The translations under genes were made by a program, and so were the position numbers. From Martelella endophytica (GTDB lineage: Bacteria; Pseudomonadota; Alphaproteobacteria; Rhizobiales; Rhizobiaceae), in the NCBI RefSeq assembly GCF_000960975.1, contig NZ_CP010803.1, forward strand, positions 248,001 through 312,000: 64,000 bases of DNA, written 5' to 3'. The first letter of the stretch is position 1, and each line of letters opens with the position of its first letter. Of the stretch, positions 19,119-40,930 are shown piece after piece. The notes beneath the pieces were generated by a model. The model had not been told where the DNA came from. It saw only the letters and a list, made by a program, of their open reading frames with translations, and made no database searches.

Positions 19119-20627
19119 TTAGCGCTCAAGCTTCAGATTGATCGGCAGGCTGAAGGAATGCGAGTTGCCGGAATAGCTTGACGGAAATGAACCGAATGGA
19201 CCGGCCGAACGGGCGCGCTGCAACACGATGGCATCGACGGCCCCGTTGCCGGAGGATCGGGCAAGCGACAGTGAGGCGATGCCGCCGCCGCGGTTGAGCG
19301 TCATGCGCACCACGACGGTGGCGTTGAGCGGACCGTGACCGCGATAATAGCGTTCCACCGCGACGGCTCGGCGCAGGCGGCTTCCGACCTTGCCGGCATA
19401 ATTGGCCATAGCCGCCGCGCCATCGCCCGTGGAGCCCGTCCGCGCGCTCGCTGCCTTCGTCGCACCGCTGCTGGCGGTGGCGGTGGCGGCACCCCGGCGG
19501 GCATTCTGGCTCGATTGACCGCCGGAACCGGATGTCTGGCGCTGAACCGTGCGTCTCGGGGTCGGCGGCGGCTCGGCGGCCTTGCGAGCAGCGACCTGGT
19601 CTTCGGGCAGCGGTTCGTTTTCCCACGGCGACGGTTGGGGAACCGGCGGGGCGATGTCGAATTCCGGGTCATCGATGGTGGCTGTCACCGTTTCGCTCGG
19701 CGCAGACGTGGCCCGCAGCGGCGTGTCGGCAGCCGGAGGGGTTGCTTCGAGCGGCTCGGACGGCAGGGCCGCGGCGGTTTCCGGCGGCGGCGCTTCCGCA
19801 GCCTCGGGCGTCACGGCGCTCGCCGCTTCCGGCGGCAGGGCCTCCGCCGTCTCTGCGACTACGGCCGGCGGCGGCGCGGAGGGGGGAACGGCATCGGGCG
19901 ACAAGGCCTCGCTCGGCGCAACCGCCAGAACCTCCGGTTCCGGCCGCGGCAGGGCGGGCGAAACGGGCGTTTCGGCCGGAGCCGCCGGCAGTGCCTCCAT
20001 TGCCGGCGTTTCGGCGACCTCGGGTCGCGGCGCCTGCGCCTGCTCCACCGGTCGGGTGGCCTCCAGCGGCTCGGCCGTCACGGCCCTTGCCGTTTCAACC
20101 GGCACCGGCTGGGCCTCGACCTCCACGGGCGTCTCGATCACATCCTCACCCGCAGCCAAGGCATCGGCGTCGCCGTTTCCAAGCGAAACCACATTGACGA
20201 CGACGCCACCTTCTTCCTGCGGCGCCTCCGGCACCGGCTTGGCGACATTCATCACCATGGCAAAGACGAGCGCGTGGAAGATCACCGAGCCGAGTGCGGC
20301 CGACGACATCACCTGGCGCTTGCGGCCCGCGGCCAGCGGCACGAGGCGCGGCAGCGTCGGTGCGATCATTTCGGCGTCGGCTTCGGAGAGTTCCGGCCCG
20401 GCAGCCACCGGTGGAGGCGCCTCGGTCTTTGGCGCGAGCGGCACAGCCTTGGCGTTTGCCTGGCTCAGTAGCTCGAAGACCACGGCATCGAAGCGATTGT
20501 CGGCTGCGGTATCGACCTCGATTTCCGGAGGCGTGACGACGGGCTCCCCGTCCGCCTCCTCGCGTGCGGGGCTATCCAGCATGCCGCCTGGCAAGCCTCT
20601 GGCAAACATAGACCTGTCGTCCATCAT
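19119..20627 (-). CDS. tonB: TonB-family energy transducer with long N-terminal extension
   Basis: Couples the inner-membrane proton-motive force to TonB-dependent outer-membrane receptors. In its 502 residues a single membrane helix lies at about 106-128 and carries the TonB-type Ser-x3-His pair (GSVIFHALVF, Ser114/His118). A long Pro/Glu/Ala-rich periplasmic spanner follows, and the C-terminal domain (about 415-502) contains YRGHGPLNATVVVRMTLN and INLKLER at the end. Unlike E. coli TonB, about 105 residues precede the membrane helix and should be cytoplasmic. It is preceded on the same strand by a small periplasmic protein gene, and the pair is divergent from hemP-hmuSTUV. Rhizobial tonB is known next to hmu genes, so a heme-uptake role is a good inference. 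ExbB/ExbD are not in this window. Confidence 0.9.
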   Translation of the reverse strand: MMDDRSMFARGLPGGMLDSPAREEADGEPVVTPPEIEVDTAADNRFDAVVFELLSQANAKAVPLAPKTEAPPPVAAGPELSEADAEMIAPTLPRLVPLAAGRKRQVMSSAALGSVIFHALVFAMVMNVAKPVPEAPQEEGGVVVNVVSLGNGDADALAAGEDVIETPVEVEAQPVPVETARAVTAEPLEATRPVEQAQAPRPEVAETPAMEALPAAPAETPVSPALPRPEPEVLAVAPSEALSPDAVPPSAPPPAVVAETAEALPPEAASAVTPEAAEAPPPETAAALPSEPLEATPPAADTPLRATSAPSETVTATIDDPEFDIAPPVPQPSPWENEPLPEDQVAARKAAEPPPTPRRTVQRQTSGSGGQSSQNARRGAATATASSGATKAASARTGSTGDGAAAMANYAGKVGSRLRRAVAVERYYRGHGPLNATVVVRMTLNRGGGIASLSLARSSGNGAVDAIVLQRARSAGPFGSFPSSYSGNSHSFSLPINLKLER

Positions 20628-20652
20628 TACCCCGAACCCAGTTTGTGGCCGT

Positions 20653-21102
20653 TCAGCCGTCGAAAGGAATGCCGGCCTTCGAATCAGTGGTCAGATTGGC
20701 CATGCAGTCGGCGCCGCCCGCTTCGCAGACCTTGATGTCGTTCAGCAGCAGTCCGCCCAGCGCATCGCAGGTCTGGCCGGGAAGCTCGAACTGGCGGACG
20801 CGCTTCTTGCCGGCCGGCAGCGTCAGGAAGTCCAGCATGGTCAGTCGATCCACCACGCCTTCGGCATTGAAGAGAGCCACTTCCGTCTGCAGGCTCTCGA
20901 TCGTCTCGGCAAGCTCGTTGTCGACAACGAAGGTCAGCTTGCAGCCGTTCTCCGTGGTCTCGAGCGAATTCAGCGAAATCGACAGGCCAGCCGGCGCCGG
21001 CGCATCCGAAGTCGTCTCGGCGTCCGTCGAGGCCGCCTCCTGAGCCATCAATGGCTGCGACAGGGCGAAAAGCGCGACGGCGGCGCTTGCGAATAGTTTC
21101 AT
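20653..21102 (-). CDS. Small secreted protein next to tonB
   Basis: A 149-residue protein with a clear signal peptide (MKLFASAAVALFALSQPLMA, cleavage probably after residue 20). The mature part has a Thr/Asp/Ala-rich linker and then a predicted beta-rich domain with four cysteines (in NGCKLTF, GQTCDAL, KVCEAGG and ADCMANL) that could form two disulfides. I do not recognise a characterised family. It lies 25 bp upstream of tonB on the same strand, and its start faces hemP across a 180-bp region containing two iron-box-like sites, so it may be an iron-regulated periplasmic accessory of the heme system (inference). Confidence 0.8.
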   Translation of the reverse strand: MKLFASAAVALFALSQPLMAQEAASTDAETTSDAPAPAGLSISLNSLETTENGCKLTFVVDNELAETIESLQTEVALFNAEGVVDRLTMLDFLTLPAGKKRVRQFELPGQTCDALGGLLLNDIKVCEAGGADCMANLTTDSKAGIPFDG

Positions 21103-21208
21103 CTCTCAAATCCCGGTTCAAATTTGGTGGTTGGCGACACGGGGCTGAGGCCCGCGCCACATTCTATCGGTCAACCGTCAAATCGTCTATTGCGTGGATA
21201 GACAAAGG

Positions 21209-21223
21209 TGATTAATGGAGTCA
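21209..21223. promoter_or_regulatory. Putative RirA (iron-responsive) box 1
   Basis: The 15-mer TGATTAATGGAGTCA fits the rhizobial IRO-box pattern TGA-N9-TCA bound by RirA, the Fe-S repressor of iron uptake genes. It lies 60 bp upstream of hemP, in the divergent tonB-side/hemP intergenic region, and 28 bp (start to start) from a second such site. Confidence 0.5.
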
Positions 21224-21236
21224 ACTTATAAAAACA

Positions 21237-21251
21237 TGATTCCAATTATCA
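21237..21251. promoter_or_regulatory. Putative RirA (iron-responsive) box 2
   Basis: TGATTCCAATTATCA again matches TGA-N9-TCA, here with AT-rich flanks, and ends 31 bp before the hemP start. Its position close to the hemP promoter makes it the more likely repressor site for hemP-hmuSTUV. Confidence 0.6.
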
Positions 21252-21282
21252 AGTTTATAGAACCAAGACAACATACGTGACG

Positions 21283-21456
21283 ATGAACGACACGAAAACG
21301 GACCGTGGCGAGGCCCGCGAGAAACAATCGGAAACCCCTGCCGTCCTCGAAAGCGACACGCTTTTCCGGGGCGCAAGCGAGATCATCATCCGCCATCAGG
21401 GGGCCGATTACCGCATGAAGATCACCCGTCAGGGCAAGCTCATCCTGAACAAATAG
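21283..21456 (+). CDS. hemP: Hemin uptake protein HemP/HmuP
   Basis: A 57-residue protein, MNDTKTDRGEAREKQ at its start and ending YRMKITRQGKLILNK. The core (LFRGASEIIIRHQGADYRMKI read as LFRGASEIIIRHQ and DYRMKITRQGKLILNK) is diagnostic of the HemP/HmuP family. In Bradyrhizobium and Sinorhizobium HmuP is needed for expression of the heme receptor gene, acting as a regulator with Irr. It is the first gene of the hmu operon, 10 bp before hmuS, and lies directly downstream of two TGA-N9-TCA boxes. Confidence 0.92.
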   Translation: MNDTKTDRGEAREKQSETPAVLESDTLFRGASEIIIRHQGADYRMKITRQGKLILNK

Positions 21457-21466
21457 GCAAGAGACG

Positions 21467-22531
21467 ATGACCGAGCAGAAGACCCCCGAAGAAATCCGCG
21501 CCTTCCGCCGCGACAACCCGAAGATGCGCGAACGCGACATCGCCCGCATCCTCGGCATCAGCGAGGCCGAGCTGGTCGCCGCCGAAGTCGGCCTCACGGC
21601 GACGCGCATCGACGCGAACCCCACCCCGCTTCTCGCCCACGCCGAAGGTTTCGGCGAGATCATGGCGCTGTCGCGCAATGAAAGCGCGGTACACGAGAAG
21701 ATCGGCATCTTCGAAAACATCAAGAGCGGCAAGAACTCGGCCATCGTGCTCGGCGAGAATATCGACCTGCGCATCTTCCCGAGCCGCTGGGCCCATGCCT
21801 TCGCCGTCACCAAGACCGACGATGAAGGCAATGAGAAGCTCAGCCTGCAATATTTCGACAAGACCGGCACCGCGGTGTTCAAGCTCCACTGGCGCCCGGC
21901 CTCCAATGTCGAGGCCTATCACCGATTCGTTTCGGAGACCCGGCTTGAGGCGCAGAGCCAGACGGTTGAAACCGAGGCCTTCACCGCCCACGACGCCGAT
22001 CATGCCCGCGATCCCGATGCCGTCGATGTCGAATTGCTGCGCGACCGCTGGAGCGCGCTCACCGACACGCACCAGTTCTTCGGCATGCTGAACGAGTTGA
22101 AGGTGCACCGCAAGACGGCGCTCTCATCGGTCGGCGATGACTATGCGGTCCGGCTCGCGGACGATGCCGTCACGGCGCTTCTGACCAAGGCCTCCGCCCT
22201 TCAGGAACTGCCGCTGATGGTGTTCGTTTCCAATCGCGGCATCGTCCAGATCCATTCCGGGCCGATTTCGAAGGTCGCCGAGATGGGGCCGTGGATCAAC
22301 ATCATGGACCCGACCTTCCACCTGCACCTGCGCCGCGACCACATTGCCGAGACCTGGCTGGTCAGAAAGCCGACCAGCGACGGCCACGTTACCTCGATCG
22401 AGGCCTTCAATGCCGAGGGCGAGATGATCATCCAGTTCTTCGGAAAGCGGCTGGAAGGCTATGCGGAGCGGCCATTGTGGCGCGAACTCGCAGAAGGCCT
22501 GCCCCGCGCCGGCGCAATGGCGGTCGCCTGA
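21467..22531 (+). CDS. hmuS: Heme-binding / heme-degrading protein HmuS
   Basis: A cytoplasmic 354-residue HemS/ChuX-family protein that accepts heme after import and, in several species, cleaves it to release iron. It shows the expected internal duplication: the N-half motif FENIKSGKNSAIVLGENIDLR and the C-half motif VFVSNRGIVQIHSGPISKV occupy equivalent positions, each followed by FNLHLR-type strands (RIFPSRWAHAF; FHLHLRRDHIAETW). The ATG follows a gcaagaga site. It is followed after 13 bp by hmuT. Confidence 0.95.
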   Translation: MTEQKTPEEIRAFRRDNPKMRERDIARILGISEAELVAAEVGLTATRIDANPTPLLAHAEGFGEIMALSRNESAVHEKIGIFENIKSGKNSAIVLGENIDLRIFPSRWAHAFAVTKTDDEGNEKLSLQYFDKTGTAVFKLHWRPASNVEAYHRFVSETRLEAQSQTVETEAFTAHDADHARDPDAVDVELLRDRWSALTDTHQFFGMLNELKVHRKTALSSVGDDYAVRLADDAVTALLTKASALQELPLMVFVSNRGIVQIHSGPISKVAEMGPWINIMDPTFHLHLRRDHIAETWLVRKPTSDGHVTSIEAFNAEGEMIIQFFGKRLEGYAERPLWRELAEGLPRAGAMAVA

Positions 22532-22544
22532 GGAGATGCCCGCC

Positions 22545-23405
22545 ATGAATGCCCTGAAGACGCTCGCCCTTCTGACCGCAGGCCTGCTTTCCGCCAACGC
22601 CGCGCTTGCGGCCGAGCCGCTTGCCGATCCCTCGCGGCTCGTCACCATCGGCGGTTCGGTGACCGAGATCGTCTATGCGCTCGGCGCCGGCGACGAGATC
22701 GTCGGCCGCGACACCACCAGCACCTTCCCGCCCGAGGCGAATGACCTGCCGGACGTCGGCTACATGCGACAATTGTCCCCGGAGGGCGTGCTCTCGGTCA
22801 GCCCGACGGCGATCATCTCGATCGAAGGCGCCGGCCCGCCGGAAACCATCGATGTGTTGAAGAAGGCCGATCTCGACTTCGCCGAAGTGCCCGAAGCCTA
22901 TAGCCGCGACGGCATCATCGAGAAGGTGAAGACCATCGGCACGCTGATCGGTCGCAAGACCGAGGCGGAGGCGCTCGCAGCCGACATCGCCGCCGATCTC
23001 GACCCGATCCTCGCGGCAAACGAGGCGCGGACAGAGAAGAAGCGCGCGATCTTCATCCTGTCGCTTCGCGGCGGCAAGGTGATGGGTTCCGGCACCGGCA
23101 CGGCGGCCAACGGCGTCATCGAGGCGGCCGGGCTCGAGAATGCCATCGGCGACTTCCCCGGCTACAAGGCGCTCTCCGACGAGGCGGTTATCGAAGCGGC
23201 GCCCGACATCATCCTCGTCATGGGCGGCGCCGCAGGCGGCCATTCGCTGAGTAATGACGACATGGCCGGTCAGCCGGCACTGGCGCTGACGCCTGCCGTC
23301 CAGAACGGCGCGATCTACCATATCGACCCGGTCGGCATGATGAATTTCGGACCGCGCTTTGCCGACAACCTGAAGACACTGACCGACGAAATCTACGGAA
23401 AGTGA
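22545..23405 (+). CDS. hmuT: Periplasmic heme-binding protein HmuT
   Basis: Solute-binding component of the heme ABC importer, class III (BtuF/TroA-like). I chose the ATG at 22545 (MNALKTLALLTAGLLSANAALA, 286 residues), 9 bp after an AGGAG site; the in-frame ATG at 22536 abuts that site. The signal peptide is followed by RLVTIGGSVTEIVYALGAGD, typical of the family. VGYMRQLSPEGVLS contains the Tyr likely to ligate heme iron. Permease and ATPase genes follow immediately. Confidence 0.94.
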   Translation: MNALKTLALLTAGLLSANAALAAEPLADPSRLVTIGGSVTEIVYALGAGDEIVGRDTTSTFPPEANDLPDVGYMRQLSPEGVLSVSPTAIISIEGAGPPETIDVLKKADLDFAEVPEAYSRDGIIEKVKTIGTLIGRKTEAEALAADIAADLDPILAANEARTEKKRAIFILSLRGGKVMGSGTGTAANGVIEAAGLENAIGDFPGYKALSDEAVIEAAPDIILVMGGAAGGHSLSNDDMAGQPALALTPAVQNGAIYHIDPVGMMNFGPRFADNLKTLTDEIYGK

Positions 23406-23412
23406 GACTGGC

Positions 23413-24507
23413 ATGGCGATGATGGACGCGCTGAGCACACGGCAAGCCCACTGGCGCGCGACCGGCGACCGATCCCGGATCGCCGTCGCGACCATCTTCG
23501 TGCTTGCCGTCGTCTCGATGGCGGTACTGCTGATCTCGGTTGCGACCGGCGCCTCGGATGCCTCGGTGTTCGATGTTGCCCGCGCCATCCTTACCGGCGG
23601 CGCCGACGACGCGCTGGCGGCACGCGACCGCATCATCATCTTCGATATCCGCCTGCCGCGCGCGGTGATGGGCTTCCTCGTCGGCGCCTCGCTTGCGGTC
23701 TGTGGCACGGCCATGCAGGGCCTGTTCCGCAATCCGCTGGCCGATCCGGGGCTTGTCGGCGTCTCCGCCGGCGCCGGCTTCGGCGCGGTGGTGATGATCG
23801 TGCTCGGCGGCACGGTGGCGGCGCCGGTCTATAACCTGCTCAGCTTCTACGCCTTGCCGGCGGCCGCCTTCCTCGGCGGCCTGGTGACCACATTGCTGCT
23901 CTATCGCATAGCCACCCGCCACGGGCAAACCTCGGTTGCCACCATGCTGCTTGCCGGCATCGCGCTTTCGGCGCTGACGGGCGCGGCCACCGGCTTTCTC
24001 GTCTATCTCGCCAACGACCAGCAGCTTCGCGACCTGACGTTCTGGTCGATGGGCTCGCTTGCCGGCGCGACCTGGACCAAGGTCTTCGCCATCCTGCCGA
24101 TCATGGCCGCAGCCTTTGCCGTATTGCCCTTCATGGCGAAGGGGCTGAACGCGATCACGCTCGGCGAAGCGACGGCCTTCCATATCGGCATTCCCGTACA
24201 GCGGCTGAAGAACGTCACCATCGTCGCGGTGGCGGCCGCGACCGGCGCGGGCGTCGCCGTTTCCGGCGGCATCGGTTTTGTCGGCATCGTCGTACCGCAC
24301 CTGCTGCGCCTCGTCATTGGCCCGGATCACCGCTTCCTGCTGCCGGCCGCAGCCCTTCTCGGCGGTGCCCTTCTGGTGCTTGCCGACATGTTCGCACGCA
24401 CGGCTGTCGCGCCGGCCGAGCTGCCGATCGGCATCATCACCGCCGTTGCCGGCGGGCCATTCTTCCTGTGGATCCTGCTGCGCAACCGCTCGCGGCTCAA
24501 CCTGTGA
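23413..24507 (+). CDS. hmuU: Heme ABC transporter permease HmuU
   Basis: A 364-residue FecCD-type permease with about nine or ten membrane helices. The first helix is near residues 20-45 (IAVATIFVLAVVSMAVLLIS). Family signatures include DIRLPRAVMGFLVGASLAV, AMQGLFRNPLADPGLVGVSAGA (here AMQGLFRNPLADPG) and the C-terminal GIGFVGIVVPHLLRLVIGPDH region that contacts the ATPase. It lies 7 bp after hmuT and 4 bp before hmuV. Confidence 0.95.
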   Translation: MAMMDALSTRQAHWRATGDRSRIAVATIFVLAVVSMAVLLISVATGASDASVFDVARAILTGGADDALAARDRIIIFDIRLPRAVMGFLVGASLAVCGTAMQGLFRNPLADPGLVGVSAGAGFGAVVMIVLGGTVAAPVYNLLSFYALPAAAFLGGLVTTLLLYRIATRHGQTSVATMLLAGIALSALTGAATGFLVYLANDQQLRDLTFWSMGSLAGATWTKVFAILPIMAAAFAVLPFMAKGLNAITLGEATAFHIGIPVQRLKNVTIVAVAAATGAGVAVSGGIGFVGIVVPHLLRLVIGPDHRFLLPAAALLGGALLVLADMFARTAVAPAELPIGIITAVAGGPFFLWILLRNRSRLNL

Positions 24508-24511
24508 CGGC

Positions 24512-25309
24512 ATGATGATCACCACCCGCGACATATCCGTCACCCTTTCGGGCCGTTCGGTGCTGCATGGCGTATCGCTTCAGGCGCCGGCCGGACGTCT
24601 CACCGCCATTTGCGGGCCGAACGGCTGCGGCAAGACCACGACGCTGAAGACGATCGCCGGCGACATCACCCCGCAATCGGGCGCCGTCACGATCAACACT
24701 CGGGAGATAGCCAGCCTGGCGCCGTGGCAGCTTGCCGAACTGCGTGGCGTGCTGCCGCAGGCCTCAAACCTCGCCTTTCCGTTCACCGTCACCGAAGTGT
24801 TGCGCATGGGGCTTTCCGGACGCGGCCACCGCGCAGCGGACAAGGATCGCGCGGTGATCGCCGCCGCGCTTGCCGCCGTCGACCTGAAAGGCTTCGAGGG
24901 CCGCTTCTATCAGGAGTTATCCGGCGGCGAACAGCAACGCGTGCAGCTCGCCCGCGTGCTCTGCCAGATCGAACGCCCCGTTGAGGACGGAACGCCGCGC
25001 TGGCTGCTGCTCGACGAGCCCGTGGCGAGCCTCGATATCCGCCACCAGCTTGCCATCATGCGGCTCGCCCGCGGCTTCGCCGAGGCCGGCGGCGGCGTCA
25101 TCGCCGTGATGCACGACCTCAACCTGACCGCACTTTATGCCGACCATGTGGTGCTGATGAAGGAGGGCAGGATCGCCGCAGCGGGCGCGCCAAGGGATGT
25201 GCTCACCGACGACAATCTCTATGCCGTCTTCCGCGCCCGCCTTTCCGTCAACCAGATACCACGGGACGACACCCCCTTCGTGCTGCCGCATTCGGCGGCC
25301 AGCGAATAG
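24512..25309 (+). CDS. hmuV: Heme ABC transporter ATP-binding protein HmuV
   Basis: ATPase of the heme importer, 265 residues from the first of two adjacent ATGs (24512 or 24515). Walker A reads GPNGCGKTT, the signature is LSGGEQQRVQLARVL, Walker B is WLLLDEPVASLD and the switch His is in AVMHDLN. HPxQ-like spacing and length match HmuV/HemV. It ends the operon and is convergent with rsmD. The frame is open upstream into hmuU but carries no homology there. Confidence 0.94.
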   Translation: MMITTRDISVTLSGRSVLHGVSLQAPAGRLTAICGPNGCGKTTTLKTIAGDITPQSGAVTINTREIASLAPWQLAELRGVLPQASNLAFPFTVTEVLRMGLSGRGHRAADKDRAVIAAALAAVDLKGFEGRFYQELSGGEQQRVQLARVLCQIERPVEDGTPRWLLLDEPVASLDIRHQLAIMRLARGFAEAGGGVIAVMHDLNLTALYADHVVLMKEGRIAAAGAPRDVLTDDNLYAVFRARLSVNQIPRDDTPFVLPHSAASE

Positions 25310-35748: not shown

Positions 35749-36735
35749 CTAGAACGCGATCGGCTCCTGGATGAGCTCGACGCCGAACCGCTCCCGAACC
35801 CGCTCCCTGACCAGCGCCGAAAACCGCTCGACATCGGCCGCAACCGCACCGCCGTGATTGACCAGCACCAGCGCATGGCCCTCATACATGCCGACGGGAC
35901 CGAGGCGCTCGCCCTTCAGCCCGCATTGCTCGATCAGCCATCCGGCGGAAAGTTTCACGGTGCCATCGGCCTGCGGATAGCGCGGCGCGCCCTCTATCGC
36001 GTCGGCGATGGCGACCGTGACAACCGGGTTGTGGAAGAACGAGCCGGCATTGCCGAGCACCTCCCAGTCCGGCAGTTTCGAGGCCCTGAGCGCCACCACC
36101 CGGTCCATCACCGTCTTCGCATCGGCATCGGCCGGCAGGCTGTCGAGGCCGGGATAGGCGCGGTTCGCCTGCCAGGCATGCGGCAGGGCGAGCGACACCG
36201 AAAGGATGACGTAGCGCCCGGGATGGGCCTTGAAGAAGCTCTGGCGATAGGAAAAGCCGCAGGCCACGCGGTCGAAGCTGCGGGTTTCGCCGGTCTCGGT
36301 ATCGAAGGCGGTCAGTTCATGGAAATGATCGGAAAGCTGGATGCCGTAGGCACCGATATTCTGCACCGGCGCGGCACCGACGGTGCCCGGAATGCCGGCG
36401 AGGTTTTCAAGCCCCGGCAGCCCCTCGCCAACCGTCCAGGCGACGAAATCATGCCAGTTTTCGCCGGCACCGGCCGTGACGACGGTGTGAGTCGGCGATG
36501 AGGGAACGCGCGCGCGACCCGAAATCCGCATCAACCCGACGATCGCATCGAGCCGCTCCGGCAGCACCAGATTGCTGCCGCCGCCGATGATCCTGAATGG
36601 CAGGCCCCGGGCGCCACTTTCGGCGACAAGCGCCTCGATGATCCCGGCCTCCTCGATGACGACGCCGTAGCGCGCAACGGATTTAAGCCCGAGCGTGTTC
36701 AGGGCGGTCAGGTCATAGTCGGCAATGAGATCCAT
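35749..36735 (-). CDS. murB: UDP-N-acetylenolpyruvoylglucosamine reductase MurB (E. coli type)
   Basis: Reduces UDP-GlcNAc-enolpyruvate to UDP-MurNAc in peptidoglycan synthesis, using FAD and NADPH. The start at 36735 gives MDLIADYDLTALNTLGLKSV and 328 residues. FAD-domain motifs are IIGGGSNLVL and IPGTVGAAPVQNIGAYG; the catalytic-type Ser is in NAGSFFHNP and the Glu near the end in LIQEP. GFSYRQSFFK and AGWLIEQCGLKG identify the long E. coli-like MurB class. It stands alone, far from any mur/fts cluster, and may be a second MurB of the genome (inference). Confidence 0.93.
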   Translation of the reverse strand: MDLIADYDLTALNTLGLKSVARYGVVIEEAGIIEALVAESGARGLPFRIIGGGSNLVLPERLDAIVGLMRISGRARVPSSPTHTVVTAGAGENWHDFVAWTVGEGLPGLENLAGIPGTVGAAPVQNIGAYGIQLSDHFHELTAFDTETGETRSFDRVACGFSYRQSFFKAHPGRYVILSVSLALPHAWQANRAYPGLDSLPADADAKTVMDRVVALRASKLPDWEVLGNAGSFFHNPVVTVAIADAIEGAPRYPQADGTVKLSAGWLIEQCGLKGERLGPVGMYEGHALVLVNHGGAVAADVERFSALVRERVRERFGVELIQEPIAF

Positions 36736-36913
36736 TCGGGCAGGCTTTCGTCTTCGGTTCGCGATCCGCCCCTTATGACACTGCCGCCGGGCGAATGATA
36801 TAGCCTGCGTCAAGGCTGGGCGCCTAGACCCGCCAACACATGGAAGCCGCAAAAAACGCACTTTTTCGCCACAAATTGTTGACCGTCCTCCGCAAGTCCG
36901 CAACTCTGTTTTC

Positions 36914-38557
36914 ATGACGATAAAGAGCGGGACATTTGCGCGGTACATGCACCGGCTGGCGGAGATACCGCGGCTTTTCAAGCCGTCGACACTGCCGCAG
37001 GCCTGGGAGCGCGACAATGTTGAAGTTCTCGCCGCCCGCCGCCGGATTGAAATCCATCAGTCCTTCCTCACCGCACTGCCCGACTTCGGGCTCCCCGGCG
37101 CGATCCTCGACACGGAAGGGCAGAAGCTCGTCGACATTGGCGATGCCGAGACCCTGCCGGCGCTCTTCACGCTGCCGCCGGAAAATGACGAGGGTATCGC
37201 CTTTGCCGGAACGGGTCGGCGGCTGGTCATCCTGATAAACCTTCGCCGCTCCTGGCCCGGTGCACCCGAAGGCGTGGGCTGGCTGGCGCTGATGCTCGAT
37301 CGCGCCTTCATCGGCAAAACCACCGGGGCGACCCTGACCAACAGCGAATACGAACTGCTTTCCTGCCTGCTCGTCGGGCTGGAACTGAAGGAGGCGGCCG
37401 CAAGACTGGATGCGTCATACGATACCAAGCGCAAACAGCTTCAGATCATCTTCCAGAAGATGGAGGTGACGAGCCAGGCGGCGCTCACACGCACGGTCTC
37501 GATCCGCCTGATGAGTCATTTCATCGAATCCTTCGGGCGCAGACAGCATGTGCCTGCCGAAATCACCCTGCTTCGCCGCCAGTACGGGCGCGACGTGCTC
37601 ATTCACGCGGTCGCGCTTGAAAACGGAACGCAACTGCCGGTCTGGGAGTTCGGCGACCGGCGCGGCAAGCCTTGCCTGTTCTTCCACCCACTGCTTTCCC
37701 CAACCGTTCTCAGCGACGACAAGATCGGTTTGCTGCGCGAAAACGGGCTGCGTTGGCTCGTCGTGCCGCGCTTCTTCGCCCCGGGAACCGCCGAGGCCAC
37801 CGCCGATCCGTTGCGGGCGCTCGAAGACCATGCGGATGCGCTTGCGGATTACGTCGCCCACTTCGTTGGCGCGCCGGTGACCTGCGTCGCGACCAGCGCC
37901 GGCGTCTCCTGGGCGGTGTTCTTCGCCAAGCGATATCCGACGCTCGTCGAGCGGTTGGTCATCGCCGCAGCCCCCTTCCCGTCCTCGCTTGCGCCGGAAA
38001 CCGCTGGCGACAGCCTGCAGGCGGCTCTTGCCGGCGCGCTACGCCAGAGGCCGGGCGTGCTGGCAGCGCTGGTGCGCGCCTTCGCCCCCATCGCCCGCTC
38101 GCAGAAGCTCGCCTTCCGCGCCTACCGACATGCCTACCGCAATGCGCCTGCGGATCTGCGCACCATCGCCTCCTATGCCGAACACGGCCACGCGCTCGAA
38201 TGGCTGAAGCTGATTGCCGACCGGGCGTCAGCGAGCGTCGTCACCGACCTGGCAGTCAATCACCGGGACTGGCTGGCGGATGCCGCCGACCTTTCGCTCC
38301 CCATCACGCTGCTGCAGGGCGAGGAGGACACCATGTGCCCGCCCGCGATCATGCGCCATGTCGCCGCTGGCCTGCCGACAGCGCGGCTGAAGGTAGTGCC
38401 GGATGCGGGCCACCACCTGGCTGTCAGCCACTTCTCGCTTCTTGCAAACGTCCTCAAGTCTCCGGAAAACGCGATCGCGCCGAACACCCTCGATGAGACG
38501 TTCTCCACTCCGGTTCTCGCGGCGGCGCCGGAAGGCCGCCTGCCGCAATCCTCATGA
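36914..38557 (+). CDS. LuxR-type HTH fused to alpha/beta hydrolase
   Basis: A 547-residue two-part protein. Residues 1-135 form an N-terminal region of unclear fold (IHQSFLTALPDFGLPGAILD, then RLVILINLRRSW), resembling a PAS-like sensor. Residues about 140-200 are a LuxR-type HTH: LTNSEYELLSCLLVGLELKE followed by AAARLDASYDTKRKQLQII. Residues about 220-520 form an alpha/beta hydrolase with nucleophile Ser about 328 (CVATSAGVSW), acid loop LQGEEDTMCPP and His in DAGHHLAVSH. No signal peptide or membrane segment. The start is uncertain: no good ribosome binding site precedes 36914, and 36947 is an alternative. It is monocistronic and divergent from murB. The hydrolase may sense or turn over the ligand that controls DNA binding, but this is inference. 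Confidence 0.85.
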   Translation: MTIKSGTFARYMHRLAEIPRLFKPSTLPQAWERDNVEVLAARRRIEIHQSFLTALPDFGLPGAILDTEGQKLVDIGDAETLPALFTLPPENDEGIAFAGTGRRLVILINLRRSWPGAPEGVGWLALMLDRAFIGKTTGATLTNSEYELLSCLLVGLELKEAAARLDASYDTKRKQLQIIFQKMEVTSQAALTRTVSIRLMSHFIESFGRRQHVPAEITLLRRQYGRDVLIHAVALENGTQLPVWEFGDRRGKPCLFFHPLLSPTVLSDDKIGLLRENGLRWLVVPRFFAPGTAEATADPLRALEDHADALADYVAHFVGAPVTCVATSAGVSWAVFFAKRYPTLVERLVIAAAPFPSSLAPETAGDSLQAALAGALRQRPGVLAALVRAFAPIARSQKLAFRAYRHAYRNAPADLRTIASYAEHGHALEWLKLIADRASASVVTDLAVNHRDWLADAADLSLPITLLQGEEDTMCPPAIMRHVAAGLPTARLKVVPDAGHHLAVSHFSLLANVLKSPENAIAPNTLDETFSTPVLAAAPEGRLPQSS

Positions 38558-38637: not shown

Positions 38638-38653
38638 CCCCCCATTTGGGGGG
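38638..38653 (+). terminator. Possible terminator after LuxR-hydrolase gene
   Basis: A perfect CCCCCC-ATTT-GGGGGG hairpin, 80 bp past the stop, is followed after a short GC stretch by TTATTTTT. Confidence 0.45.
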
Positions 38654-38738: not shown

Positions 38739-39602
38739 ATGAACAAACTGATTTTGGCCTTCCTGGCGGGAACGGCAATGATTTCACTGGCCGGCTGTGG
38801 CAGCACAAGCGGCGGTTCGGACGGCATCGATATCAGCACGACCGGCTCGACCGGCACCGGCAATACGGCGAGCGGCTCTGACGGCAACTATACTGTCGCC
38901 GGCACCATCGTTCAGGTCAGGGATGGCTCGGTGGAAGCGACCGCCACGGCCGGCGATTTCACCGAGGACGAGGACGGCAATTTCACGCTTGCCTTTACCT
39001 CCGGCCCCTATGCCGGACAGAGCGTCTCCTTCAGCGAAGGCAACGACACATCCGCGCTCGGCGACGAGACCGCGACGCTTGAAGCCTTCCTCGGCGCAGG
39101 CGACGATACCTCTTCCGGCGCTCTCTACATCACCGTCGGTGACTATGAGGGTCTGAACGGCAATTTCATCGCAGCCTATAGCGGCGACGCCGTTTCCGAT
39201 CTGCCGCAGTCCGGCACCGGCACCTATAACGGCGAATACTTCGGCAGCGCCGCCAACGATGGCGTCACCGGTCTCGTCTCCGGCAACAGCCAGATCGCCG
39301 TCGACTTTACCAGCGGCGCGGTCAACGGCACGTTCAGCGGCCTGACGATCACCGATGACGGCACCGCGATCGGCACGATGGACGATGTCGGCTTCTCCGG
39401 TTCGCTCGACAAGACATCGGGAACCTATACCGCAAGCAGCATGACGATCGGCGGCAACGCGGCCGACACCGATTCGACCCTGAGCGGGGCGCTCTATGGC
39501 GAAGGTGCGGATTCGACCGCCGGCAGCCTCGCTGTCGTCGACGACTTCGACAATCCGACCAAGGCCACGGTCGGCGTCTTCCAGGCCGACAAGGCTGACT
39601 GA
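38739..39602 (+). CDS. Putative Slam-dependent surface lipoprotein
   Basis: A 287-residue lipoprotein: MNKLILAFLAGTAMISLAGC is a signal peptide with lipobox LAGC, and the ATG at 38739 has an agggga site. After the Cys comes a Gly/Ser/Thr-rich low-complexity linker (about 25 residues), then a beta-rich, very acidic body. The C-terminal half (about 150-287) looks like the eight-stranded TbpB-type barrel of Slam substrates: GTGTYNGEYFGSAANDGVTG, VDFTSGAVNGTFSGLTI and finally LSGALYGEGADSTAGSLAV. It is followed after 5 bp by a Slam-like outer-membrane protein, which supports the assignment. The ligand is unknown; TbpB-class lipoproteins bind transferrin, hemoglobin or complement factors in pathogens, unlikely partners here. 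Confidence 0.75.
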   Translation: MNKLILAFLAGTAMISLAGCGSTSGGSDGIDISTTGSTGTGNTASGSDGNYTVAGTIVQVRDGSVEATATAGDFTEDEDGNFTLAFTSGPYAGQSVSFSEGNDTSALGDETATLEAFLGAGDDTSSGALYITVGDYEGLNGNFIAAYSGDAVSDLPQSGTGTYNGEYFGSAANDGVTGLVSGNSQIAVDFTSGAVNGTFSGLTITDDGTAIGTMDDVGFSGSLDKTSGTYTASSMTIGGNAADTDSTLSGALYGEGADSTAGSLAVVDDFDNPTKATVGVFQADKAD

Positions 39603-39607
39603 ACCCG

Positions 39608-40930
39608 ATGGCGATCGGGAATTACAAACCGCGCGCCGCTTCGGCGCGCGGCCTTCTCGGCATGGCGGCCATTCTTCTGGCCCTTGCCACCAATGCGACC
39701 GCCGCCACGACGACAAAGGTGACCGGGTTCGACGCCGTGCGCGTGCTGGTCGAATATGGCGAATACGACAATGCGCTGGCGCTTGCCGAAAGCTTCGCCA
39801 ACGACGAGAAGGGCAAGGCGCTGGCGGCAGCCTTCACCCAGGCACTGATCCTCGAACAGCAAGGACGTTTGCCAGAGGCAGCCGAAGCCTTGCGTGCGAT
39901 CCTCTCGGCCAATCCGGACGCCCGCAATGTCCGCCGCGAGCTTGCCGGCGTGCTTTTGAAGCAGGGGGCCGGCGGTGCTGCCCTGCATCATTACGAACTG
40001 CTCGCCAACAGCACGACCAATGCCCAGCAGCGCGCCGTCTACGAACGCTTCGCCGCCCGCAGCCGGACACTGAGGCCGTGGACGCTCGACGGCTACATCT
40101 CGATTGCGCCCAGCACCAATATCTCCGAGGCGCCCGATGCAGACCTCGTCTATGTCGGCGGCGTGCCGATCCAGCCGGAAACCAAACAAAGCGGGATCGG
40201 CTACGGCTATGAGCTCAACGGCTCCTATCGTTTCGATCTCGATGAGGTCTCGGCGATCACGGTCGGCGCCGGCATCGATGGCACCGCCTATCGCGACGAG
40301 AGCTTCAACACCAGTTTCCTCGACACTTTCGTCGACTATCGCCGCGATGTCGGCGACTGGACCTTTACCGGCGGGCTGACCGGTCAATATGTGATGAAGG
40401 GCGGCGATCCCTACCGCACGGCGCTGGGGCCCGCCTTTTCCGTGCGCCACAATATGGGCCGGCGCGGCGTCAGCACGCTGCGGCTTCTCTGGCGCAAGCT
40501 CGACTACCGCAATCAGGATGCGCTGGACGGCAGCGAGACCATGATCGGCCTCAGCCATCTTTACGGCATCTCGTCATCGAGCTCGATCCGCTTCGGCGGC
40601 AATCTCGGTTATGTCGACGCCGAAAACGACACCAACAGCTATATCCGCTACTCGCTGAACGCCCAGTATTTCCGGGAATGGAGCATCGGCGCGATCTCCG
40701 ACATCGCGCTGATGGTCGACGACCGGGAATATCAGGACATTACCTATCTGGCCGGCGAAAAGCGCTCCGACCAGCGCATCGTCGCTTCGCTCGGCCTGAC
40801 GCTGCGAAACCTCTCCGTCAGGGGTTTCGCGCCGCGGCTTGAATATGCCTATACCCAGAATTTCTCGAACATCGACGTCTACGACTTCTCGAAGAACACC
40901 TTCTCGACCTATCTGACCAAGAAGTTCTAG
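39608..40930 (+). CDS. Slam-like surface lipoprotein assembly modifier (type XI secretion)
   Basis: A 440-residue outer-membrane protein. After a signal peptide (LGMAAILLALATNATA, ending about residue 33) comes a helical TPR domain (about 40-155: YGEYDNALALAESFANDEKG; ILEQQGRLPEAAEALRAILS), then a C-terminal beta-barrel (about 160-440) of alternating strands such as YGYELNGSYRFDLD, WTFTGGLTGQYVM and LRLLWRKLDYRN, ending in YLTKKF with a terminal Phe as usual for Bam substrates. TPR plus DUF560-like 14-strand barrel is the architecture of Slam, which moves lipoproteins to the cell surface. The lipoprotein gene 5 bp upstream is the likely cargo. A generic TPR porin is the alternative. The stop overlaps that of the convergent MFS gene by 4 bp. 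Confidence 0.78.
   Translation: MAIGNYKPRAASARGLLGMAAILLALATNATAATTTKVTGFDAVRVLVEYGEYDNALALAESFANDEKGKALAAAFTQALILEQQGRLPEAAEALRAILSANPDARNVRRELAGVLLKQGAGGAALHHYELLANSTTNAQQRAVYERFAARSRTLRPWTLDGYISIAPSTNISEAPDADLVYVGGVPIQPETKQSGIGYGYELNGSYRFDLDEVSAITVGAGIDGTAYRDESFNTSFLDTFVDYRRDVGDWTFTGGLTGQYVMKGGDPYRTALGPAFSVRHNMGRRGVSTLRLLWRKLDYRNQDALDGSETMIGLSHLYGISSSSSIRFGGNLGYVDAENDTNSYIRYSLNAQYFREWSIGAISDIALMVDDREYQDITYLAGEKRSDQRIVASLGLTLRNLSVRGFAPRLEYAYTQNFSNIDVYDFSKNTFSTYLTKKF

Follow-up and report, generated by a model that had tools for sequence, protein, structure and literature searches.

A Slam/cargo gene pair of Martelella endophytica and a candidate operator shared with a second putative lipoprotein exporter

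The Slam/cargo pair

In a 64,000-nucleotide stretch of Martelella endophytica DNA (the window; positions 248001 to 312000 of a single 4.81-Mb contig, NZ_CP010803.1), two adjacent forward-strand genes at 38739 to 40930 encode a lipoprotein and the surface lipoprotein assembly modifier (Slam) that would export it; sequence, structure models, and linkage together show that this is a Slam/cargo pair. We put at roughly 80% the probability that it is a cargo/translocon operon of the type XI secretion system (T11SS) with its own control. The pair is of a known type; the new part is the combination of a shared candidate operator, its probable regulator, and a second putative exporter. A preliminary description of this DNA had proposed the pair; the palindrome upstream of it and the regulator gene were no part of that description.

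The Slam gene (39608 to 40930; 440 amino acids [aa], last residue Phe) begins 5 bp after the cargo gene that precedes it, in the arrangement first described. Its product, a T11SS outer membrane protein, matches PF04575 SlipAM (DUF560) at 99.6 bits (cut-off, 22; E = 3e-28) over the full profile, 1 to 288 of 288; the genome has no other SlipAM match, and 14 control genomes yielded none. An AlphaFold2 model from 22 sequences (mean predicted local distance difference test [pLDDT], 84.9) has a periplasmic TPR-type domain of seven helices at residues 40 to 154 (39725 to 40069), where helices had been expected at about 40 to 155. A 14-strand outer membrane barrel follows, ending in Phe (40079 to 40927; 14 long strands within residues 158 to 439). 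TPR_16 matches at 37.4 bits (cut-off, 32.7). The alternative that this is an ordinary porin or TPR protein was therefore not borne out. Resemblance of the model to 14-strand and other barrels (CymA and OmpG) and to BcsC/PelB shows fold, not family; no Slam appeared among the 18 PDB sequence matches of one search or among the 60 listed of 157 matches of a second, which were mostly TPR proteins. NCBI names the Martelella homologues "surface lipoprotein assembly modifier," and the Slam itself is already known to annotation.

The upstream gene (38739 to 39602, forward strand) encodes the predicted T11SS cargo, a surface lipoprotein of 287 aa. Lipoprotein signal peptides are marked by a lipobox, and here we read the lipobox LAG|C directly from the sequence (38739 to 38798; Cys20 codon, 38796 to 38798), as had been reported. 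G19 and C20 are invariant in 13- and 12-member cargo alignments. Alignment A3 excludes rows P0006 and P0007, and alignment A4 excludes P0016, L063, L064, L077, L079, and L080. Residues 21 to 47 (38799 to 38879) form a Ser/Gly/Thr-rich linker that is predicted to be disordered (pLDDT < 50 for residues 1 to 47). In the AlphaFold2 model this linker leads to a beta-rich handle domain (residues 49 to 149; 38883 to 39185), which differs between paralogue groups and is likely the ligand-facing part. The C-terminal TbpB-type barrel (residues 160 to 287; 39216 to 39599) is likely the part that Slam recognizes, and the lipoprotein does contain the motif claimed for it, LSGALYGEGADSTAGSLAV.

Assignment of the cargo to the TbpB type was upheld by profile and fold matches: profiles of LbpB, TbpB, hemophilin, NHBA, and fHbp match, and LbpB is the best PDB sequence match of the 12-member alignment (1.4e-13), while a PDB sequence search with the single cargo sequence gave no match. 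Identity to the solved structures matched by fold is 12 to 25%. Of the eight-strand barrel first proposed, the fold match to 4ayn is in favor and carries the strand count; the model itself has nine strand segments in residues 160 to 285. Three profile results weigh against our assignments. The cargo matches NF041636 slam_lipo at 48.1 bits, below the cut-off of 80, while six other cargo genes in six genomes of the genus exceed it; its FHBP_C match is also under cut-off (E = 0.016); and the TPR_Slam model scores 29.6 bits on the Slam protein (cut-off, 35.2). The only named cargo homologue in NCBI is a "hypothetical protein," and a plasmid search with the cargo gave no match. Named close homologues of the pair come from Martelella, so the earlier label of a rhizobial-type genome was a fair one.

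In the mechanism that we propose, the lipoprotein would be made with its Sec/lipobox signal, lipidated at Cys20, and carried to the outer membrane by the established pathway. Slam would recognize the C-terminal barrel and place the cargo on the surface, where the disordered linker would hold a single TbpB/fHbp-like lobe; these parts come from sequence and model.

Linkage and distribution of the pair

We searched 151 genomes: that of M. endophytica (G000) and 150 relatives, 13 of the total belonging to the genus (G000 to G012) and 138 lying outside it. Because these genomes are related, counts within the genus are not independent. SlipAM matched at E ≤ 1e-3 in 29 of the 151 genomes, at 33 places, and slam_lipo in 27; 24 of these 33 SlipAM places have a slam_lipo match on the same contig no more than about 2.5 kb away. 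Within the genus, all 14 Slam genes have a barrel-type cargo alongside. This count includes a 5′-truncated cargo gene (L041) and one missed by tblastn that has an open frame and a slam_lipo match (L042). Slam and cargo are jointly present in 10 genus genomes and jointly absent in three (G005, G008, and G009), and this recurrence is part of the case for a pair. Of the 19 Slam places in nongenus genomes, 9 lack a nearby slam_lipo match, and several of those 9 are weak Slam matches.

The genus pairs form two groups. Group A comprises the window, L035, L037, L039, and L041, whose Slams are 72 to 77% identical to that of the window; in group B (L032 to L034, L036, L038, L040, and L042 to L044), identity to the window Slam is 41 to 45%. 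Cargo and Slam genes are 5 bp apart in the four intact group-A loci measured and roughly 75 to 220 bp apart in the six group-B loci measured, varying with the start codon taken. Cargo and Slam distances are correlated across 15 hand-picked loci (Mantel r = 0.925; 0 of 10,000 shuffles; omitting L034, L038, L041, L042, L045, L049, L053, L054, and others), but linkage alone would be expected to produce such a correlation, so it is not proof of cargo-Slam interaction.

Two loci are decayed. M. mediterranea IOP_24 (L041/L063) has lost the 5′ part of the cargo gene and retains no exact operator (see below), and no regulator was found there; in strain W31 (L064), the regulator is split between two overlapping pieces, with interruptions in both cargo and Slam. 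The system is thus dispensable, and its parts seem to decay together.

Six genus genomes (G001, G002, G004, G006, G010, and G011) carry a slam_lipo-type cargo gene without its own Slam, at one site beside an ahcY-like (adenosylhomocysteinase) gene and a sugar-kinase gene (L081 to L086); for such a cargo, Slam would need to act from a distance. In two genera, as judged by eye, a zapA-transketolase-gap-formyl-tetrahydrofolate cyclo-ligase neighborhood holds Slam/cargo and regulator genes (L035, 1042 to 9095; L051, 368 to 10233), and it may feed the reported co-occurrence of T11SS with one-carbon genes. Gene names outside the window (ahcY, zapA, tkt, gap, the L037 transposase, and murB in L100 and L101) were assigned by eye from translations unless backed by a profile.

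A candidate operator and its proposed regulator

A 16-bp perfect palindrome, CCCCCCATTTGGGGGG (38638 to 38653), ends 85 bp before the cargo start; we propose that it is an operator, and it was first seen by aligning the DNA 5′ of five group-A cargo genes. We regard as about evenly poised the broader proposal of a surface-lipoprotein regulon. In it, a LuxR-like factor with a hydrolase-derived receptor would read a small molecule and, via this one operator (among the 13 genus genomes, present only at the two kinds of loci concerned), would switch on both the Slam translocon and an ABC/FtsX-HlyD-TolC composite exporter, unrelated machines that would each display a lipoprotein of their own; the regulator would travel, swap sites, and decay along with its operator and the cargo.

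The regulator gene (36914 to 38557, forward strand) encodes a 547-aa protein with a helix-turn-helix (HTH) at residues 140 to 193 and an alpha/beta-hydrolase fold at about 300 to 505. Pfam detects Hydrolase_4 (40.9 bits) and Abhydrolase_1 (34.5 bits), both above cut-off; GerE falls below its own (19.3 versus 23.5 bits), hence we say only LuxR-like. Regulators of the LuxR/GerE type combine an HTH with a ligand-binding domain, and some receptors descend from alpha/beta-hydrolases. Among 12 aligned regulators, the nucleophile-elbow residue is Asn in eight, Ser in three (including that of the window), and Leu in one, while Asp472 is invariant and His500 nearly so. As in hydrolase-derived receptors, Asn at the elbow with Asp and His retained leads us to infer a receptor rather than an enzyme, although the window copy has Ser and could still be enzymatically active. 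Regulator paralogues have an almost unchanged HTH recognition region. A distant homologue at L051 matches GerE at 44.7 bits; homologues at L088 and L048 gave no HTH match.

Site counts are based on exact matches. The 16-mer CCCCCCANNTGGGGGG has 10 distinct exact sites in the 13 genus genomes: two each in G000 and G007, one each in G002, G004, G005, G006, G008, and G011, and none in G001, G003, G009, G010, and G012; its reversed control has none in all 151 genomes. ACCCCCCANNTGGGGGG has seven sites in the genus genomes (reversed control, 0). Four of the 10 sites precede a group-A cargo gene, ending 83 to 87 nucleotides (nt) before its start, and the other six precede a small lipoprotein gene and an ABC/FtsX/HlyD/TolC-type exporter, ending 101 to 109 nt before the lipoprotein. 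That the palindrome is common, within the genus, only to these two kinds of loci points to a shared regulator.

These distances bear on another origin for the palindrome, as the transcription terminator of the regulator gene. In the window it lies 80 bp past that gene and could form a six-pair G-C stem. However, within each type of locus the palindrome keeps almost the same distance from the lipoprotein start, a terminator scan (which requires a T run) did not list the window copy, and in G006 and G011 the palindrome lies between divergent reading frames, according to open reading frame calls, so that no transcript should end there. We consider a terminator highly improbable and set it aside on the strength of the two divergent cases. 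A sigma-70 promoter scan found no promoter.

The number of regulator homologues (E ≤ 1e-30) equals the number of exact sites in 13 of 13 genus genomes, five of which have neither; only 6 of 200,000 shuffles agreed as well, although related genomes are not independent. A regulator gene lies no more than 5.5 kb from 7 of the 10 sites, and regulator homologues adjoin Slam in G002, G007, and G073. The last is the only 1 of the 138 nongenus genomes with a regulator at this threshold, a protein in which Pfam detects only the hydrolase. G010 keeps the small lipoprotein, followed by a short ABC-like frame (by eye), and lacks both regulator and exact operator. M. mediterranea 175.2 (taken as G003) has a 113-residue regulator fragment at a looser threshold (E = 1.5e-18). 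A plasmid search with the regulator returned four records, three of them from Martelella; an order-level search (alignment A6, E ≤ 1e-50) found it in 1 of 397 genomes, our own, but no more than three candidates were scored per genome and absence is weak evidence there.

Several observations weigh against the shared operator. In three genomes (G005, G006, and G008), the regulator gene lies away from the operator, on a different contig, which would also fit action in trans. The exact 16-mer occurs once each in 3 of the 138 nongenus genomes (G105, G108, and G110), none of which has a regulator at E ≤ 1e-30, and G073 has the regulator homologue beside Slam without an exact 16-mer. Allowing one mismatch added a single site (G010), while the reversed control then gave six (one in G012, three in G011, and two in G002), too noisy to be useful. 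We found no operator-like site at the eight group-B Slam loci tested, nor in Phyllobacterium. After the exact sites and the one in G110 (21.1 bits), the best scores of a weight matrix (scanned over 1.02 Mb in 72 loci, many fetched for Slam or palindrome and some overlapping) were those of sites ahead of the Slam cargo of Mesorhizobium sp. J18 (17.0) and strain W31 (16.6) and then ahead of the G073 cargo (12.3); chance places scored 12.3 (L078) and 11.9 (L090), so the G073 site is not significant by itself. In J18, a protein with a Sigma70_r4-type HTH above cut-off lies beside the pair, and at L051, where the distant regulator homologue is adjacent, the best site reaches only 4.1 bits.

Another explanation is a plain Slam/cargo pair whose palindrome either serves a different transcription factor or is a DNA or RNA element of another kind, with the LuxR-like/hydrolase gene a bystander. 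The three separated sites, the GerE score of the window protein, and G073 all favor it, and both could have been carried along by a history that the two operons share. Agreement of regulator and site counts, the proximity of most sites, the loss of regulator and operator together in G010, and the near-invariant recognition region argue the other way, and we consider a bystander rather unlikely. Under the regulon proposal, the regulator, with its hydrolase-fold sensor, would bind the palindrome 85 bp upstream, at CCCCCCAWWTGGGGGG, and the same operator class would control the small lipoprotein and its ABC-type exporter; sites and co-occurrence suggest that one ligand-sensing regulator probably controls both exporters. 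Our best guess is that a small signal molecule resembling an ester or a lactone gates expression of the pair.

A second putative lipoprotein exporter

The second type of palindrome-led locus (L088, 6062 to 12642; also L089, L091, L098, L099, and L100) encodes, in order, a small lipoprotein of about 120 to 140 aa with four further cysteines, an ABC ATPase, an FtsX permease, an HlyD/MFP-type protein, and a TolC-type lipoprotein; it is possibly an unnamed lipoprotein exporter. In the one copy that we searched with Pfam (L088), ATPase and permease are above cut-off, HlyD_3 and OEP are below, and RND_mfp reaches 48 of 94.9 bits on the adaptor. Neither Pfam nor NCBIfam gives a match for the small lipoprotein. 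This protein occurs in 7 of the 151 genomes, all in the genus; a set of 5.8 billion proteins contains eight relatives, and the three that bear names are from Martelella. Annotation of this operon on a Martelella sp. NC20 plasmid gives an ABC ATPase and an FtsX permease alongside hypothetical proteins, and a Tn3 transposase adjoins the regulator.

The same side of murB carries the Slam cassette in G000 and the ABC-lipoprotein cassette in G010 and G011 (window, 35749 to 36914; L100, 5840 to 7090; L101, 6468 to 8087; murB was identified by Pfam in the window and by eye in L100 and L101), as if one site hosts either cassette. Mobile-element genes flank other loci: a transposase-like gene at group-A locus L037 (3656 to 4878, by eye) and annotated recombinase and Tn3 transposase genes at the ABC-type locus L105 (4109 to 7801). 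Together with the changing neighborhoods, they suggest that the cassettes move.

Another possibility is that the ABC and Slam loci are cargo systems without relation to each other, both of which acquired the same mobile promoter. The shared murB side in different species and the Tn3 transposase next to the NC20 regulator are in its favor, but regulator and operator numbers agree even where the two are on different contigs (G005, G006, and G008), and we consider this explanation unlikely.

A role in iron uptake

T11SS of Neisseria and Acinetobacter serve hemophores and iron uptake, and the cargo fold matches include hemophilin and HpuA. A comparable role here would depend on distant TonB-dependent receptors and on the iron/heme-type ABC genes at 21.5 to 25.3 kb of the window. 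HutX-like and BtuF/BtuC-like ABC genes and a TonB-family gene do lie in the window, at 19119 to 25309, 13 to 20 kb from the pair, although the HutX, BtuF, and BtuC matches are below NCBIfam cut-offs. Hemophilin-type hemophores have a heme-ligating histidine; the mature cargo lacks histidine in the four group-A members checked. The absence of an adjacent TonB-dependent receptor, observed earlier, holds for the whole genome: the nearest of six PF00593 matches starts at contig position 522,077, about 233 kb from the Slam end at 288,930. Flanks of the other group-A loci, read for 6 to 7 kb per side, are unlike those of the window. We therefore set aside heme uptake on the histidine count and receptor distance: iron is unlikely as the role of the cargo, and a hemophore system quite improbable. 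Our best guess is that the displayed lobe binds a soluble or surface partner rather than heme.

Comparison with known systems

Slams combine a TPR domain with a 14-strand DUF560 barrel (PMC5449769). Hooda and colleagues reported that Slams occur in every clade of Proteobacteria and that all predicted cargo contains an eight-strand barrel (PMC5449769). The M. endophytica pair shares with Neisseria Slam1/TbpB, Slam2/HpuA, and fHbp both this translocon architecture and a cargo lobe of handle plus eight-strand barrel, but differs in a single-lobed cargo that is 12 to 25% identical to the structures and has no histidine, in lacking a nearby TonB-dependent receptor, and in belonging to a nonpathogen lineage (PMC5449769 and PMC9090332). 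Grossman and colleagues distinguished ten T11SS clusters; the seven experimentally verified systems are all in animal-associated cluster 1, and marine systems often have DUF1194 genes (PMC12282271). Marine cluster 3 (Roseobacter type) is likewise alphaproteobacterial and includes some loci with a 282- to 375-aa barrel lipoprotein; however, marine loci mostly have DUF1194 and barrel cargo is rare, in contrast to the Martelella Slams (PMC12282271). The main texts of PMC12282271 and PMC8406197, as available, contain no occurrence of "rhizobi," Agrobacterium, Sinorhizobium, or Alphaproteobacteria.

For the second locus, the closest known relative is Aat/CexE (dispersin) of E. coli, a composite type I secretion system/Lol exporter; both have a small lipoprotein, an ABC ATPase, an FtsX-type permease, an HlyD-type adaptor, and a TolC-type channel, but the Martelella substrate has a cysteine lipobox in place of an N-terminal glycine (PMC7943197). 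The NC20 locus shows no AatD-type acyltransferase among its 15 annotated features, a gene table that may not be complete; no genome-wide search was made. Literature searches returned no characterized LuxR-hydrolase fusion among the papers listed, no description of such a regulon in titles and abstract openings, and nothing on surface lipoprotein assembly modifiers with "rhizobi"; DUF560 with Alphaproteobacteria returned only a barrel database.

What the window adds is a compact T11SS pair in a lineage outside animal-associated cluster 1 with no iron-receptor partner nearby, which suggests that its cargo probably serves a function other than iron. The second putative lipoprotein exporter could be compared with Slam side by side in the same cell. 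The shared operator offers a direct handle: knowledge of the ligand of the regulator would show under which conditions these bacteria coat their surface and probably also for what reason.

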